DNA of 20,950 bases, from IMG/VR virus record IMGVR_UViG_3300031963_009209, positions 1 through 20,950 of that record; one strand, 5' to 3'. Both the position numbers and the translations under genes were made by a program. The notes beneath the pieces were generated by a model that did not search any database, was not told the DNA's origin, and saw nothing but the letters and a program-made list of their open reading frames with translations. Shown here one piece after another: positions 1 to 8,486 of this stretch. Position 1 is the stretch's first letter. Every line of letters starts with the position of its first letter. Source of the stretch: a virus.

Positions 1-34
1 TAGTTTCTTGGTCTTTTTTGACTTTAAAATGCAT
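1..34 (-). CDS. Start of an unknown gene, cut by the window edge
   Basis: An ATG at 34 overlaps the TGA of the preceding gene in a TGATG junction. It is preceded by a strong Shine-Dalgarno (GAGGAG, 2 bases before the ATG, encoded in the last Glu codons of the upstream gene). Only 11 codons are visible (MHFKVKKDQET), so no function can be given. The start itself is convincing because the site and coupling match the other junctions in this window. Confidence 0.7.
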   Translation of the reverse strand, partial: MHFKVKKDQET

Positions 35-588
35 CACTCCTCGCTTTCTGTAATAAGATCTTCAATTGTAGTATTTGTTATTTCATCAGAATTAGAGACG
101 TACTGGATTTCTTCAAAAGATTCAACTGTAATTCCCTTGGTGCAGTTATTCTGGATGTCGTAACGTCTTTTATAGTCGTCAGAGTTTATCTCTCTTTGGT
201 CCCAAAAGCTATATGCCAGATTTCCCAGAGCCTTACTTTTTTCATTAAACTTAACAATTGCGGCTTCGACATCTTCAGGAAAGAATCCATTCTCGTTAAA
301 AAACCTAACATTCTCAGGATTTTTTGTCATTCGTTTAGCTATTTTAAAGAGATGATTAGACTCAGAATCTGTGACAAAAGTAGAATGTACAAACTCTTTA
401 TAATAGGAATCTAGAAATTCTTTTTCTTCTGCGTTTAAAGGGCGTATTACACGCTCTCCGTCTAAGTTAAAAACTCCATTTACATATTCAGATTCTATAA
501 AATCTTGCCTATGTAATCTGGCTCCTTTCTTACTCAAGTTCTGAAACTTTCTTTTGTGCTTTTTTACTTTTCCAATGTTGTTTGTCAT
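34..588 (-). CDS. Unknown phage protein, 184 residues
   Basis: I do not recognise a family. The N-terminus (residues 1-28) is strongly basic with many Lys and Arg, the middle is mixed helical with aromatic residues (a YYKEF stretch near 62-66), and the tail is acidic, ending in ESEE. There is no signal peptide or membrane segment, so it should be cytoplasmic or virion-associated. The ATG at 588 lies 59 bases inside the upstream gene and has no good Shine-Dalgarno; a TTG at residue 18, close to the upstream stop, is an alternative start. Its last two Glu codons form the ribosome-binding site of the next gene. The reading frame is solid; the start and function are not. Confidence 0.8.
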   Translation of the reverse strand: MTNNIGKVKKHKRKFQNLSKKGARLHRQDFIESEYVNGVFNLDGERVIRPLNAEEKEFLDSYYKEFVHSTFVTDSESNHLFKIAKRMTKNPENVRFFNENGFFPEDVEAAIVKFNEKSKALGNLAYSFWDQREINSDDYKRRYDIQNNCTKGITVESFEEIQYVSNSDEITNTTIEDLITESEE

Positions 589-919
589 ATTGTTTTGCAG
601 CTTTTAGCAACTCCTCGTTAACTTCAAATAGACCTTCTTTAAGCATGTAATATCTCTGGTTATTTCTTCGATAATCTGGAAAGTGTTTACCAAAAGTCTG
701 AAAGAAAGTTATCTTCTTTGCTTTTCTTTTTGGCTGATCCACTCTCCAGATTGATCTGTAAATATAAAAAATCAAATAGTTTGGTATTGCCTGTGTTCCT
801 GATTGAATTTCCAATTCGTTAATAAAATCAAGAACATCTCTATTTTCAGACTTAGCCTTTACTTTAGAAGTTGACTTTTCCTGAACTAGCTTTAACAATT
901 CCTCTATAGACTTTTCCAT
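530..919 (-). CDS. Unknown phage protein, 129 residues
   Basis: The ATG at 919 follows AAGGTG at a 5-base spacing, ten bases after the stop of the ClpP-like gene, so it is probably co-transcribed with it. Residues 1-25 form a charged helix. The region around 45-60 is aromatic (YLIFYIYRSIW), and 65-95 carries KKITFF, FGKHF and RRNNQRYY, a basic-aromatic pattern compatible with a winged helix or other DNA-binding fold, though this is only an impression. The C-terminus is Lys-rich. No catalytic motif is visible and I do not assign a family. Confidence 0.82.
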   Translation of the reverse strand: MEKSIEELLKLVQEKSTSKVKAKSENRDVLDFINELEIQSGTQAIPNYLIFYIYRSIWRVDQPKRKAKKITFFQTFGKHFPDYRRNNQRYYMLKEGLFEVNEELLKAAKQYDKQHWKSKKAQKKVSELE

Positions 920-928
920 TATAGCACC

Positions 929-1699
929 TTAAAAAATTAAATTCAAATTCTTTCTTTTTAATTCTACAGCTCTTTTAATTTTTTCGATCTCCTCAGGCTT
1001 TACACTTCTGTTAAACTTAAAACTTAGCGGAGCTGAGATTAAAGGACACTTAGAAAATTGTAAAGTTGCTATACCAAACGGAGTTCTAACATCTTGTTCG
1101 TAAGTTTCTCTCAGGAGATTATCAGCACATTTTACGTTAGCCAAAGCATCTGCGTGTTTCTTGTCTACAGCTTCATTCCCATTAAGCCACAGCTCATTCA
1201 CAATAGCAGCGTCATAAGCTTCTTTGGTCATTCCAACTCTCTTAGAGGCTCGTTCTGACATTCCAGACAGGATTGACTGGATATGATTCACTCTAGAATT
1301 TAGCTCTCCGGGAACTTGTCCGGACACTCCGCTTAAGAAACCACGATGACTCATCAAAGTCCCAGAAGGAATAATGTACCGAGTTCCCAGCTCTTGAACA
1401 AACTGATATCCCATGGAAGCAGCAAAGATTGTGATAGTGTGGACAGGAATTCCTAAACTTTTAATTGAGTCTACAAATCGCAAGCCAGCTGTTACTGAAC
1501 CTCCGGGAGTATCTAGAACTAAATAGATAGGAGATGCTTTTAAAGACTTGGACATGATCTCTAAAGTCTTCTTAGACACAAGCTCTGAAGTTACTTGATC
1601 GTTAAATATAACAGAATTGTTTTCTGTCAGTGTAATGTTTACAGGTGCGGCATTAGCAATATTGCAGAGCAATGCCAATACTAACAAATACTTAATCAT
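929..1699 (-). CDS. Exported ClpP-like serine protease
   Basis: This 256-residue protein looks like a peptidase of the ClpP/SppA (crotonase-fold) group. After a signal-peptide-like N-terminus (hydrophobic residues 4-14, then a short ANAA-type cleavage site near 18) comes a strand-turn motif DTPGGSV at 63-69. The nucleophile region is AASMG with Ser95, and a His lies at 118 in LMSHRG, matching the ClpP serine and histidine spacing (97 and 122 in E. coli). The ClpP catalytic Asp region aligns to ELWLNGNEAVD near 169-179, where Glu or Asn seems to replace Asp. A C-terminal extension of about 65 residues has no membrane segment. GGAG lies 5 bases before the ATG. The leader suggests it acts outside the cytoplasm, unlike classical phage ClpP-type head proteases. 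The target is unknown. Confidence 0.82.
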   Translation of the reverse strand: MIKYLLVLALLCNIANAAPVNITLTENNSVIFNDQVTSELVSKKTLEIMSKSLKASPIYLVLDTPGGSVTAGLRFVDSIKSLGIPVHTITIFAASMGYQFVQELGTRYIIPSGTLMSHRGFLSGVSGQVPGELNSRVNHIQSILSGMSERASKRVGMTKEAYDAAIVNELWLNGNEAVDKKHADALANVKCADNLLRETYEQDVRTPFGIATLQFSKCPLISAPLSFKFNRSVKPEEIEKIKRAVELKRKNLNLIF

Positions 1700-1714
1700 G
1701 AATTCTCCAATAAT

Positions 1715-1738
1715 AAAAAAACAAACGTAATTGTTTGT
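1715..1738 (-). terminator. Weak hairpin with T-run in the leader of the ClpP-like gene
   Basis: On the minus strand, ACAAAC (1738-1733) and GTTTGT (1726-1721) form a perfect 6-bp stem with the loop AATTAC, followed at once by TTTTTT. The shape is that of a small intrinsic terminator, but the stem has only two GC pairs. It lies between the candidate promoter and the Shine-Dalgarno of the exported protease gene, so it could equally be an attenuator or a 5' stabilising hairpin. Confidence 0.4.
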
Positions 1739-1744
1739 GTCTAA

Positions 1745-1773
1745 GTTATATCATAGCATGTAAGAAAAAACAA
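1745..1773 (-). promoter_or_regulatory. Candidate extended -10 promoter for the ClpP-like gene
   Basis: Read on the minus strand, TTGTTT (1773-1768) is followed by a 17-base spacer and TATAAC (1750-1745). TGA directly before the -10 gives an extended TGn element. The -10 matches sigma-70 consensus at five of six positions; the -35 matches only at TTG. It sits in the longest intergenic gap of the window, and its start point would fall near 1738. Confidence 0.5.
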
Positions 1774-1776
1774 TAT

Positions 1777-2100
1777 TTATTTCTTACAACCTCCTACTAA
1801 AATAACTCCGTTCTCAAATCCACCTCTTTCTAAGAACTTAGCTTCCCTTTTTGAGAATACTAAGTCAACTATATCTTGGTTGATAGCTAACGCCTTTATA
1901 ACCTCTAAAAGATCTCCGATTTCTTCAGCCAACTCTTCTACGTTCTTTGCTTCTACAACTTCGTTCGCTTCTTCCAACACTTTGTTTTTTATAAATCCAA
2001 GCAATTCTTCCTGAGACGCAATTCTAGTGTTTAAAGTTTCCCCTCGTTCCTTCAATACAAAGTCAGCAATCTTGTCACGAATGAGCTTTTCGTCAGTCAT
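1777..2100 (-). CDS. MazG/PRA-PH-like nucleoside triphosphate pyrophosphohydrolase
   Basis: This 107-residue protein fits the all-alpha NTP pyrophosphohydrolase superfamily. Residues 5-11 read KLIRDKI, typical of phosphoribosyl-ATP pyrophosphohydrolase-like phage proteins. The metal-binding pattern EEANE (43-47) is followed by ELAEEIGDLLEV (56-67), supplying the acidic residues that hold magnesium, and RGGFENGVIL (92-101) is the usual closing motif. Members hydrolyse (d)NTPs to monophosphate and pyrophosphate, clearing unwanted nucleotides or shifting nucleotide pools. It starts in an ATGA overlap with the HNH gene and is the last gene before the promoter gap. The substrate cannot be predicted. 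Confidence 0.85.
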   Translation of the reverse strand: MTDEKLIRDKIADFVLKERGETLNTRIASQEELLGFIKNKVLEEANEVVEAKNVEELAEEIGDLLEVIKALAINQDIVDLVFSKREAKFLERGGFENGVILVGGCKK

Positions 2101-2489
2101 TTCTTATTCTCCTTCCTAGCCTTTACTCTGTCAACACGTTCTTCTAAGCTCTTGCTCTTGTGGCAAATCCAACAAATATTCTGGACATTATCCTCTTCGC
2201 AAAACATTCTGGAGATTATTTTGTTCCAGTCTTTTTCTTTTCCAGAGTCTTCGACCGCTACAACTGGTTGTATATGATCAGCGTCCATTCTACCAGCAAT
2301 GGCAGTAGGATGCTCTATTTGAATAAGCTCAATCGATCTTTTACCAGTGTAAATTATTTGATCACATAAAGGACACTGATGTAATTCAGGGCCTATTTTA
2401 GTCTTTTTTTTCGCTTTCAATATTGGGGGCCACTGTTTTGTCAGCTTTCTTAGGGCTGACATTATTTTGGCTTCGAATCTCTTGTCCAT
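2097..2489 (-). CDS. HNH endonuclease
   Basis: This 130-residue protein has the zinc-stabilised HNH layout: CPLC at 39-42, the catalytic DHIQPV at 71-76, Asn101/Asn104 in NVQN, and CWICH at 106-110 followed by a basic KSKSLEE segment. The N-terminal 35 residues are basic and helical. HNH proteins of this kind nick or cut DNA and occur in phages as free-standing nucleases or packaging and recombination helpers. The chosen ATG overlaps the preceding gene by 92 bases, which is long here; an ATG at residue 10 (2462) would reduce this to 65. The N-terminal residues look like real protein, and neither start has a strong Shine-Dalgarno. Confidence 0.87.
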   Translation of the reverse strand: MDKRFEAKIMSALRKLTKQWPPILKAKKKTKIGPELHQCPLCDQIIYTGKRSIELIQIEHPTAIAGRMDADHIQPVVAVEDSGKEKDWNKIISRMFCEEDNVQNICWICHKSKSLEERVDRVKARKENKK

Positions 2490-2820
2490 TTTTATTACCC
2501 ACTTCCTTAACAGGAGCTTCTTTCTTTTCCTGTTTTTCTTGATGTCTAACTAATTTATCTTTTATGGCAGTAAGACCAAGATCTTGCAGTCTATTAAAAT
2601 CATCAACCTGAGATAGACCTTTATTATAAAGACTACTTCTAAACCAAAGTCCAACTGGAATTAAATACAAGCCGCCTTCCTCTGCTTCTATCAAAGTTCC
2701 TTGGTTGTTAGCTAATATAGTTGCTTTTTTAGCAGTTACCCACTCTCTACTAGAAGCGTCTAAAGCTTCGCTATTTATGATTTGATCCAACTTAACTTTT
2801 ATTCCCATATCTTTTTTCAT
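2398..2820 (-). CDS. Unknown protein with disordered Lys-rich tail, 140 residues
   Basis: No family recognised. Residues 1-95 could be folded, with a compact stretch around EGGLYLIPVGLWF (48-60). From about residue 95 the composition becomes Lys/Glu/Asn/Gln-rich with no hydrophobic core (QEKQEKKE, KKADKT), a typical disordered tail. That tail is encoded by the same DNA as the start of the HNH endonuclease in another frame, which may explain its composition. It starts in a TGATG junction with the upstream coiled-coil gene, with AGGAAG shortly before the ATG. No membrane segment. Confidence 0.8.
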   Translation of the reverse strand: MKKDMGIKVKLDQIINSEALDASSREWVTAKKATILANNQGTLIEAEEGGLYLIPVGLWFRSSLYNKGLSQVDDFNRLQDLGLTAIKDKLVRHQEKQEKKEAPVKEVGNKNGQEIRSQNNVSPKKADKTVAPNIESEKKD

Positions 2821-3104
2821 CAGTCTTCCTTTTTATTTTTTATAACAGCTCTGTACCCACAAGCAGCACCGCATAATTCTAATGATCCCATTGGTAATAG
2901 AGAAACTTTAACTTTAGCCCCACAACTAGGACATTCCTTTTCAACAGACTTCTTAATCTTGGGAGTCTCAACTTTTTCAACTTTACCAGTTTTTTCCTTT
3001 TCTCGCAACAACTTTTTTAATTTAGCATTTTCCTCTTTTAAATCCTTAACTTGTCTTTCAAGTGCGTACTCAAACTCTAGGTTAGCCTTGCGATTCCTTC
3101 CCAT
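2820..3104 (-). CDS. Coiled-coil protein with C-terminal zinc ribbon, 94 residues
   Basis: Residues 8-42 form a charged heptad-like helix (EYALERQVKDLKEENAKLKK), followed by a Lys/Glu linker and a zinc-ribbon-like end: CPSCG at 58-62 and LCGAACGYR at 77-85, giving a four-cysteine CxxC...CxxxC arrangement. Such small proteins often bind nucleic acid or a protein partner, but no specific role can be read. AAGGAG lies 4 bases before the ATG, inside the end of the resolvase-like nuclease gene (23-base overlap). Confidence 0.82.
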   Translation of the reverse strand: MGRNRKANLEFEYALERQVKDLKEENAKLKKLLREKEKTGKVEKVETPKIKKSVEKECPSCGAKVKVSLLPMGSLELCGAACGYRAVIKNKKED

Positions 3105-3633
3105 GACTCTCCTTTACGGAATAACCATTTTCGTTAATTCTATGCTCCTCAAACCTAACTTTACCTTGTTGGATTAAAGAACGTATATTTCTTTGTTTCT
3201 CTGAAAGCTGGCTCGTCCCAACCTTTATCTCAAGAAACACAATCTCATCCTCTGAAAAAACGACGTAATCGATTGGTCGAAACATCGGCACGAGATCTTT
3301 TACATTGTACTTAAAATCTTCATGAAATGGAAGAACATTCTCAGAAATTAATCCAAGTCTCACACTTTTACTTTGTTGTTGGGATTTAAGATCAGAAAGC
3401 TCTTTTTCAATCTTGGAATAGTCTTCTTTAAGATGGTGTATCTTAGCTTCTTTTTCCCCAACAATCTCTCGGAAATGAGCCATGGGGATAATTGAGCCGT
3501 AATCTGGCACAAGCTTTTTATAAGCCTCTAATTGCTTTTTGTAAGAGTCTATGGTTTCTTTATGTTTTACAATTTGCTTAGCGTAAACATAAACCAAACA
3601 TAGAATACAAATTAGAAATGCTATAGCAGACAC
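3082..3633 (-). CDS. Membrane-anchored Holliday-junction-resolvase-like endonuclease
   Basis: Starting at the GTG at 3633, the protein has 183 residues. Residues 2-18 are a membrane anchor (AFLICILCLVYVY), 25-88 a long charged coiled coil, and 90-165 a PD-(D/E)XK-type domain. The core reads PIDYVVF (120-126), then VFLEIKVG (132-139), giving the D...ExK triad (about Asp122, Glu135, Lys137), followed by QLSEKQRNIRSLI. This layout matches the predicted endonuclease family distantly related to archaeal Holliday junction resolvases (Endonuc_Holl), which often carries an N-terminal membrane helix. A TTG at 3651 is possible, but GTG has AAGG at a 6-base spacing and a TAGTG junction, so I prefer it. 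Confidence 0.82.
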   Translation of the reverse strand: MSAIAFLICILCLVYVYAKQIVKHKETIDSYKKQLEAYKKLVPDYGSIIPMAHFREIVGEKEAKIHHLKEDYSKIEKELSDLKSQQQSKSVRLGLISENVLPFHEDFKYNVKDLVPMFRPIDYVVFSEDEIVFLEIKVGTSQLSEKQRNIRSLIQQGKVRFEEHRINENGYSVKESHGKESQG

Positions 3634-3851
3634 TAAATACCTTCGTGGCAATAATTAATTACGTCTTCGTATATATCTAACACGTACTGTATTTTAAAAA
3701 CATCCTCTGTTACACACGGTCCAAACTCCGGATATTCGTTATCGCAATATCTAATGATAACAAAACCATGCCCATCTCGCACAGTTTCAAAAACTCTTCC
3801 AGTTTTTGTAGAGTAATAAATACCTTCTATCTCACTTGCGCTCTTTAACAT
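3633..3851 (-). CDS. Small unknown protein, beta-rich, 72 residues
   Basis: The start at 3851 is chosen because GGGAGG lies 7 bases upstream; in-frame starts further up lack a good site. The protein alternates short predicted strands (GIYYS, GRVFETV, GFVIIRY) and ends in a helical, aromatic, acidic segment (YVLDIYEDVINYCHEGI). It resembles the other small SH3/KOW-like candidates here in size and strand pattern, but lacks their K-x-G-D opening, so this link is tentative. It overlaps the upstream membrane peptide by 20 bases. Confidence 0.75.
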   Translation of the reverse strand: MLKSASEIEGIYYSTKTGRVFETVRDGHGFVIIRYCDNEYPEFGPCVTEDVFKIQYVLDIYEDVINYCHEGI

Positions 3852-4617: not shown

Positions 4618-4847
4618 ATTTTTAAGTCCTTCACTAGCTTGTTTAATATTCGTCTGACTTCATCCCTACTAATTTGCAAATCCTCGGCTATACTTTCTAT
4701 GGGCTGACCGCATATATACAACATTCCAACAAACCAATCAACTCCTATACCATCATCAGCATCTAAAGATAATCTAACTTCAGACCTAGCAGGATAATGA
4801 TACACCATTTTATGAATTTTGAAAATAATTTTAGCTATGAGTTTCAT
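4614..4847 (-). CDS. Small HTH protein, 77 residues
   Basis: The N-terminus is basic and hydrophobic. Residues 48-73 read as a helix-turn-helix of the sigma-region-4/LuxR style (QPIESIAEDLQISRDEVRRILNKL), so DNA binding is likely. It starts in an ATGA overlap with the HExxH metallopeptidase gene immediately upstream, a pairing also seen for ImmA-type peptidases and their repressor partners. It is much shorter than a full repressor and has no obvious oligomerisation domain. Direct evidence for regulation is absent. Confidence 0.78.
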   Translation of the reverse strand: MKLIAKIIFKIHKMVYHYPARSEVRLSLDADDGIGVDWFVGMLYICGQPIESIAEDLQISRDEVRRILNKLVKDLKI

Positions 4848-5188
4848 TTTTTGTTCAGTATTAAAAGTTTATTGTGGATAAAATCAGACTCTTGCACTAT
4901 CAACGGAGCCGACTCTCCAACTATCTCAGCACCTAAATCCTCCATGTCATCCTTTGTAAAATCTGGAGAAGATGTTGTGTTGCTTTCGTGAACAAAGATA
5001 TGAAAAAGCTCGTGCCTAACAACGTTAGTGTCGAAGTACGGTTTATTGAAGTAAACCTCCCTCTCTTTTGGGTAGGTAATAGCCTCAGAATCAGACCCAT
5101 GCTTTCTTACATAGGTTGTTGATGATTCGAGATAAAAGTGCCATTCAGCACCTTTAATTAACCTCGTCACAAACTTTTTACTAGCCAT
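4844..5188 (-). CDS. Small zinc metallopeptidase, ImmA/IrrE-like
   Basis: This 114-residue protein carries VVRHELFHIFVHE at 56-68, a clear HExxH zinc-binding helix (His59, Glu60, His63). A later acidic helix, DDMEDLGAEIVGE at 80-92, could supply the third ligand (Glu83 or Glu88), as in the gluzincin-type ImmA/IrrE family. Family members are intracellular and cut phage repressors or other regulators; here the partner might be the HTH protein encoded immediately downstream. The ATG is preceded by GAGG and sits two bases after the exonuclease stop. No signal peptide or membrane segment. A toxin-like or anti-host role is equally possible. Confidence 0.8.
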   Translation of the reverse strand: MASKKFVTRLIKGAEWHFYLESSTTYVRKHGSDSEAITYPKEREVYFNKPYFDTNVVRHELFHIFVHESNTTSSPDFTKDDMEDLGAEIVGESAPLIVQESDFIHNKLLILNKK

Positions 5189-7880: not shown

Positions 7881-8049
7881 CGTACTTTTCTTTTTTAACT
7901 CCGCACTTAGCACAGTCGTAAACAACGCTAATAATTAACACGGTAGACTTCCATTCATGGTAGCACATCTTTTGATTCCAATCAATATCTTTTGAGGAGG
8001 TTTTTACAGGCTCTTGAACATACTCGTCCGGATCAATCCACCACTCCAT
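7855..8049 (-). CDS. Small zinc-ribbon-like protein, 64 residues
   Basis: The protein opens with an acidic, Trp-rich stretch (MEWWIDPDEYVQEP) and then has CYH at about 29-31 and CAKCG at 46-50, a plausible Cys/His zinc site enclosing a hydrophobic strand (STVLIISVVYD). The start overlaps the stop of the upstream gene in TAATG, with GGAG 5 bases before the ATG. Similar tiny zinc-binding proteins in phages often modify host enzymes, but nothing specific is indicated. Confidence 0.78.
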   Translation of the reverse strand: MEWWIDPDEYVQEPVKTSSKDIDWNQKMCYHEWKSTVLIISVVYDCAKCGVKKEKYDEWKKQNS

Positions 8050-8486
8050 TAAAACTCCAAAGATAGCCCTAAGCCTACTCTCTTTGTGGTGTCGGCAGAA
8101 GCGATAGCGGATAACCTACCAATGATCGGGACAGACACAACCGCCCCAAACTCAGGCTTGTCGGAAAAGGCGTTCAGATCTTTTATGGCAAGTAGCCCCA
8201 CAGCCACCCCCCTACTGGTGGAAGTCTTCTCAGATATTCTGGAAGTTTCTTTGGAAGTCTCACTACTGCTATCTTCTACAACAGTGGTTTCTTTGATGGA
8301 AGACCCATCTTTTGAAGTACTTTCTTTCACAGTTGTTACTTTTTTAGTCTTTTTCTTTTCAACTTCCACGGTTACGTATTTTACAACTTCTTTAACCGTT
8401 TCTTTTTTTGGAGTTATAAAATAACCAGCTGTAAAGAAAATTAAACTAGCTAGTAATAAATTCTTGTATTTAGTAATTGTCTTCAT
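8049..8486 (-). CDS. Membrane-anchored Ser/Thr/Lys-rich protein, 145 residues
   Basis: An N-terminal hydrophobic segment (LLLASLIFFTAGYF, about 10-24) can act as a signal anchor. A long Lys/Glu/Val/Thr/Ser-rich segment follows (about 27-92), low in complexity and likely extended or coiled. The C-terminal 50 residues alternate small and hydrophobic residues (RGVAVGLLAIKDL, FGAVVSVPIIGRL) and finish with VGLGLSLEF. The final aromatic residue and alternating pattern recall the closing strand of membrane barrels, although part of it (LEF) is dictated by the next ribosome site. Possibly an envelope-spanning lysis or superinfection protein. Confidence 0.78.
   Translation of the reverse strand: MKTITKYKNLLLASLIFFTAGYFITPKKETVKEVVKYVTVEVEKKKTKKVTTVKESTSKDGSSIKETTVVEDSSSETSKETSRISEKTSTSRGVAVGLLAIKDLNAFSDKPEFGAVVSVPIIGRLSAIASADTTKRVGLGLSLEF

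Follow-up and report, generated by a model that had tools for sequence, protein, structure and literature searches.

The gene and its predicted product

ClpP is the textbook cytoplasmic or organellar protease fed by an ATPase, and a viral gene whose product joins ClpP-type motifs to an apparent export leader raises the question of where such a protein works and what it cuts. The gene occupies positions 929..1699 on the minus strand of the window, i.e. the whole 20,950-bp stretch of viral DNA analyzed here. The ORF is real and complete, starts with ATG and encodes 256 amino acids, and a GGAG is located near its start (plus-strand positions 1705–1708). A sequence-only reading had taken the product for a ClpP-like protease on the basis of the motifs DTPGGSV (residues 63–69), AASMG (containing Ser95) and LMSHRG (containing His118). 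All three motifs are present, and the identification was borne out by the Pfam CLP_protease model PF00574 (7.7e-15, 55.7 bits; cut-off, 20.2), by a sequence match to solved ClpPs (2e-11) and by the predicted fold, which is that of ClpP. The AlphaFold model, obtained with a 76-sequence alignment, had a pLDDT of 93.9 and a pTM of 0.88, and its core was superposed on ClpP by Foldseek with an E-value of ~1e-14 and an rmsd of ~2 Å. Three parts were distinguished in the protein: a Sec-type leader at the N-terminus, the core with the ClpP fold, and an extension of ~70 residues at the C-terminus.

We compared the protein with ClpP of peptidase family S14 (Staphylococcus aureus 6l40 and Neisseria meningitidis 6nah), which has the same fold (target-normalized TM ~0.8, rmsd ~2 Å) and with which it shares the PGGS, ASMG and H motifs and the G-Q motif of the handle region. 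It differs from these enzymes in having a leader, Glu in place of the catalytic Asp and a C-terminal extension with two invariant Cys, and in having little or no N-terminal axial-loop segment. Its score against the NCBIfam ClpP equivalog TIGR00493 was 43.4 bits (cut-off, 308.6). Likewise, in 16 leaderless ClpPs taken from phages that also encode the family, from other phages and from plasmids, the acid is Asp and both the extension and the Cys pair are absent. Other ClpP-fold proteases, namely NfeD1b and SppA of family S49, act outside the cytoplasm using a Ser–Lys dyad, whereas the present family has an invariant His118; the 256-residue protein gave no S49 family match, and for the NfeD1b profile the score was 13 bits (cut-off, 40).

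The viral structure library contained two near full-length matches. A 'ClpP Protease subunit' from an uncultured Caudovirales phage (UniProt A0A6J5KYR7) matched over 250 columns at 35% identity; it probably belongs to the present family, although its annotation says only ClpP. A ClpP/TepA-like protein of Fadolivirus, a giant virus of amoebae (A0A7D3V576), matched over 231 columns (TM 0.78, 28% identity), and this match extends past the ClpP core. A literature search found no exported phage ClpP family, an absence that is weak evidence, as most subscription journals lay outside the scope of the search.

Size and distribution of the family

A close-relative scan with the single protein returned, as its sole match, a copy of this gene on a twin contig with 98% identical DNA; the two copies of the gene differ at four nucleotides and at no amino acid. 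We opened the wider family with a DNA pattern for DTPGGSV-xx-AG, followed by alignment scans of IMG/VR, which yielded 134 stretches with genes for relatives; 80 loci were retained. Some pattern hits were discarded as unrelated or out of frame (L011, L015 and L033), and others were leaderless ClpPs outside the family (L016, L019 and L028–L030). The kept loci, pattern hits and genome hits together gave 80 non-redundant proteins, and conservation was counted on the 76 that were aligned, in which identity reaches down to 29%. The dN/dS ratios of the window gene against five relatives were 0.15–0.23 (NG86; dS saturated at 1.3–3.0), and the sequences indicate that the gene is under purifying selection.

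A scan of 84,980 GTDB species gave four candidate loci, all in metagenome-assembled genomes (MAGs); three of these are clear members and the fourth is a weak, partial match; the two larger of the MAG contigs have many neighbor genes in common with the phage loci. No further bacterial member was found at E ≤ 1e-30 in 353 further or repeated genomes from the phyla of two of the hosting MAGs. When 50,697 phage records were queried with three diverse members, distant ClpPs were the only matches; those inspected were leaderless, as were the inspected matches in plasmid records. The family is thus essentially viral. One Deltaproteobacteria MAG (G034) carries three copies of the gene, on contigs C54, C273 and C79, two of them split by frame breaks. 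When a tree was computed from core columns only, leaving out the leader and the extension, the family formed one clade (SH-aLRT 98); this was a rapidly computed tree in which some branches are long, and it did not settle the deeper root or the closest sister.

The N-terminal leader

The leader comprises residues 1–17, MIKYLLVLALLCNIANA (1649..1699, minus strand), and is followed by AP. It shows the pattern of n-, h- and c-regions, with a Lys, a hydrophobic core and an A-X-A site, and the putative signal peptidase I site is A17|A18. In the AlphaFold model, residues 2–14 form a helix and the core begins at about residue 20. We applied a test for a basic and hydrophobic leader to the family, with start codons chosen from the strength of the ribosome-binding (SD) site and the codon only. 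Such a leader was detected in all 80 non-redundant relatives, compared with 9.6% of shuffled sequences, and in none of the 26 further ClpP-like proteins that these phage loci encode, which served as an internal control. The earlier claim of a signal-peptide-like N-terminus is thus upheld by charge, hydrophobic core, A-X-A site and relatives alike; the first ~20 residues, considered also as a possible non-signal segment, look like a signal peptide by sequence, and related phage genomes do have the same kind of leader. Moreover, no start codon is present between the leader and the core, and a leaderless isoform is therefore not expected.

The number of residues ahead of the core ranges from 21 to 103 in the family; this segment is short in 48 of the 76 aligned proteins and exceeds 60 residues in 16, and two members have lipobox-like leaders resembling lipoprotein signals. 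Such a spread would fit signal peptides that are cleaved in most members and anchors plus linkers in the others. It seems that location is conserved in the family while the export route varies, i.e. that several routes give the same location, because the pre-core length varies and two leaders are lipobox-like. An alternative for the window protein itself is that an uncleaved N-in anchor tethers the ClpP-like domain to the inner membrane, on its outer side, so that it would be exported yet attached. The 16 long members, read as anchor plus linker, and the two lipobox-like leaders favor this possibility; however, the window protein and its closest relatives have only ~20 pre-core residues and A-X-A sites are common, and we regard tethering as unlikely.

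Putative active-site residues and cysteines

The alignment and the predicted fold place Ser95 (codon 1415..1417, minus strand) and His118 (codon 1346..1348, minus strand) at the positions of the catalytic Ser and His of ClpP, in agreement with the active-site pair proposed earlier; both are invariant (76/76). The acid position had previously been read as Glu or Asn. The first of these holds and the second does not: Glu169 (codon 1193..1195, minus strand), which is Glu in 75 of 76 proteins, aligns with residue 172 of S. aureus ClpP, which we take to be the catalytic Asp of the established numbering. The residues leading into this position are VNE in the 256-residue protein, compared with DRD in S. 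aureus ClpP.

Asp184 is also invariant among the 76 proteins, and the extension following it (929..1147, minus strand; 73 codons including the stop) was modeled as a short helix, beta strands and a terminal helix. The length beyond Asp184 is 45–144 residues in the family (median, 85), compared with 4–41 in leaderless ClpPs. Within the extension, Cys191 (codon 1127..1129, minus strand) and Cys218 (codon 1046..1048, minus strand) are both invariant (76/76) and are putative disulfide partners. The mature parts contain two Cys in 45 proteins, four in 27 and three in 4, that is, an even number in 72 of 76, as would be expected for disulfides in an oxidizing compartment.

We also considered that the protein might be exported without being a protease, as a ClpP-fold scaffold or binding protein that, for example, masks a receptor. 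Catalysis is not required for export or for the disulfide features, the acid is Glu rather than Asp, and the preceding residues differ from those of ClpP. However, Ser95 and His118 remain invariant and Glu169 nearly so in relatives as divergent as 29% identity, and Glu is also found in two annotated head-maturation ClpPs of phages. A non-catalytic role is accordingly improbable.

Genomic context and the head-maturation alternative

Phage-encoded ClpP-type proteases of the head-maturation families (NF045542, phrog_94 and phrog_133; e.g. those of Fels-1 and Pmp14) resemble the present family in having Ser and His, and the Fels-1 and Pmp14 enzymes further share the Glu acid and an E-x-W motif. 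Those sampled nevertheless differ from it in that they are leaderless, adjoin the portal gene, have no Cys extension and fall in a separate clade. That no portal gene is visible in the window carries no information by itself, the window being a 20,950-bp fragment.

Three lineages were distinguished by context. Lineage 1, which includes the window, consists of ~80-kb phages. Here the gene stands at the end of the replication arm, ahead of a change of strand to the tail and virion genes, and is followed by a gene with a Pox_D5-like domain and then by a 184-residue gene. In the window, these conserved neighbors lie at 530..919 (minus strand, 129 residues; PF03288, 9.8e-5) and 34..588 (minus strand), respectively; the former is found in 27 of 82 loci, directly downstream in 26 of these, and the latter in 29 of 82, mostly at the second position. 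Lineage 2 comprises large phages in which the neighbors encode SbcC/SbcD, a helicase and a zinc-ribbon protein. In lineage 3, the surroundings are head genes: a portal gene lies upstream, and the second gene downstream encodes a phrog_1028 prohead protease.

In G002, a window-like relative of 80 kb, the terminase–portal–MCP cluster is ~35 kb from the ClpP-like gene; no recognizable protease was found in that cluster. More than one PF00574 gene is present on 18 of the 30 larger contigs, and G014, G018, G019 and G020 each encode a separate head protease of phrog_1028 (E ≤ 1e-38). A second, leaderless ClpP-like protein of ~160–280 residues is often encoded two to four genes upstream of the leader-bearing one (L054, L055, L057, L058, L062, L063, L065, L067, L070, L073, L075, L076, L078 and others); by a simple pattern, some of these second proteins do not have the usual ASMG-type serine motif.

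Thus, the earlier suggestion that this is not a head-maturation enzyme is probably correct: such a role is unlikely because of the distance in G002, the extra PF00574 genes and the separate prohead proteases, although less firmly so for lineage 1. The alternative takes the protein for an ordinary head-maturation protease of the ClpP-like kind, with an N-terminus that only resembles a signal peptide. It draws on the matches of PHROG head-maturation families to the 256-residue protein (up to 1.7e-10), the shared Glu acid, the position of the lineage 3 gene between portal and prohead protease, and the fact that no other head protease was recognized in window-like phages. We found it very improbable in view of the leader, which is universal in the family and absent from co-encoded ClpP-like proteins, the invariant Cys pair, the low NF045542 score (38.3 bits; cut-off, 120), the remote head cluster in G002 and the many relatives with other ClpP-like or prohead proteases.

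A ClpX-like ATPase in window-like loci

In eight window-like loci, a gene for a ClpX-like AAA+ ATPase lies three to four genes downstream (G002 34972–35898, equivalent to L123:15972–16898, with homologues in L043–L048 and L064). The encoded protein scored 229 bits to Escherichia coli ClpX. It is devoid of the ClpX N-domain and of the segment (chain positions 205–232) that holds the ClpP-docking loop, and is perhaps, from its sequence, a stand-alone phage unfoldase. On the twin contig of the window, none of the ORFs called in the 10 kb downstream of the ClpP-like gene resembled this protein.

The proximity of the two genes and the score to E. coli ClpX would fit a phage ClpXP pair in which the ATPase feeds the ClpP-like peptidase. 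We rejected this pairing because the ClpX-like protein has neither the N-domain nor the docking-loop stretch; in addition, the twin contig has no such gene nearby and the leader would separate the two proteins to opposite sides of the membrane. The probability that they form a ClpXP pair is minimal.

Proposed mechanism and meaning

We consider it probable that the product is an exported, leader-cleaved, disulfide-stabilized ClpP-type serine peptidase that acts free of a Clp ATPase on envelope peptides or loose segments. The protein would be exported via the Sec pathway, its leader would be removed after residue 17, and it would fold outside the inner membrane with a Cys191–Cys218 disulfide in the C-terminal extension. 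Ser95, His118 and Glu169, placed by alignment, would form the catalytic triad. Peptidase activity would need no Clp ATPase, because there is no ATP in the compartment and the N-terminal axial-loop segment of ClpP is largely or wholly missing from the mature protein. Without such an ATPase, the enzyme would therefore probably act during infection on peptides, or on parts of envelope proteins that are unfolded or loose. The synteny of the loci revealed no neighbor gene that points to a substrate. Clearance or remodeling of host envelope proteins, including superinfection exclusion, is the likeliest use, although as a specific proposal it is doubtful.

The occurrence of an exported ClpP-like protease in many uncultured bacterial viruses suggests that phages digest envelope proteins during infection. 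In its broadest form, the proposal that a dedicated extracytoplasmic, disulfide-stabilized and ATPase-free ClpP-type peptidase, which degrades envelope proteins in infection, is shared by diverse tailed phages and possibly by a giant virus is tentative, at somewhat below even chances; if true, a ClpP lineage has adapted to work beyond cytoplasm and organelles. A consistently exported phage clade with an invariant Cys pair and an intact catalytic site would point to a way of acting on the cell envelope that is undescribed for phages. In databases, these genes may simply carry labels such as 'ClpP' or 'head maturation protease', and the leader, Cys pair and Glu acid provide a simple sequence signature for finding the family.

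Upstream sequences and other genes of the window

The dyad ACAAACN6GTTTGT, a possible operator or regulatory hairpin, lies at 1721..1738, 22–39 nt upstream of the start codon. The exact dyad occurs once in the window and is present at the same place in the window-like loci L041–L048 and L064, and otherwise only in L118, at a different place; its stem is kept and its loop varies. A weak promoter-like site, TTGTTT-17-TATAAC, was read from the sequence at 1745..1773 (minus strand). The earlier proposal that the gene has its own promoter was supported in part: the number of sigma-70-like sites in positions 1–3000 of the window (9) did not exceed that expected by chance (8.0), whereas TTGACA-17-TAnnnT precedes the ClpP-like gene in L051, L053, L071, L080 and L037, and the dyad is conserved. 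The dyad and the consensus-like promoters of relatives suggest that the ClpP-like gene is regulated on its own, with a weak promoter match in the window.

Three other genes of the window, all on the minus strand, are of note. The gene at 4844–5188 encodes a small protein with an HExxH-like motif (RHELFHIFVHES), a possible metallopeptidase with related genes in 15 loci. At 3082–3651, a Holliday-junction-resolvase-related endonuclease domain (PF10107, 1.5e-20) is combined with an N-terminal hydrophobic segment. Finally, the gene at 8049–8486 encodes a membrane-anchored protein rich in Lys, Glu, Ser and Thr, which is conserved in 15 loci and is spanin-like by eye.
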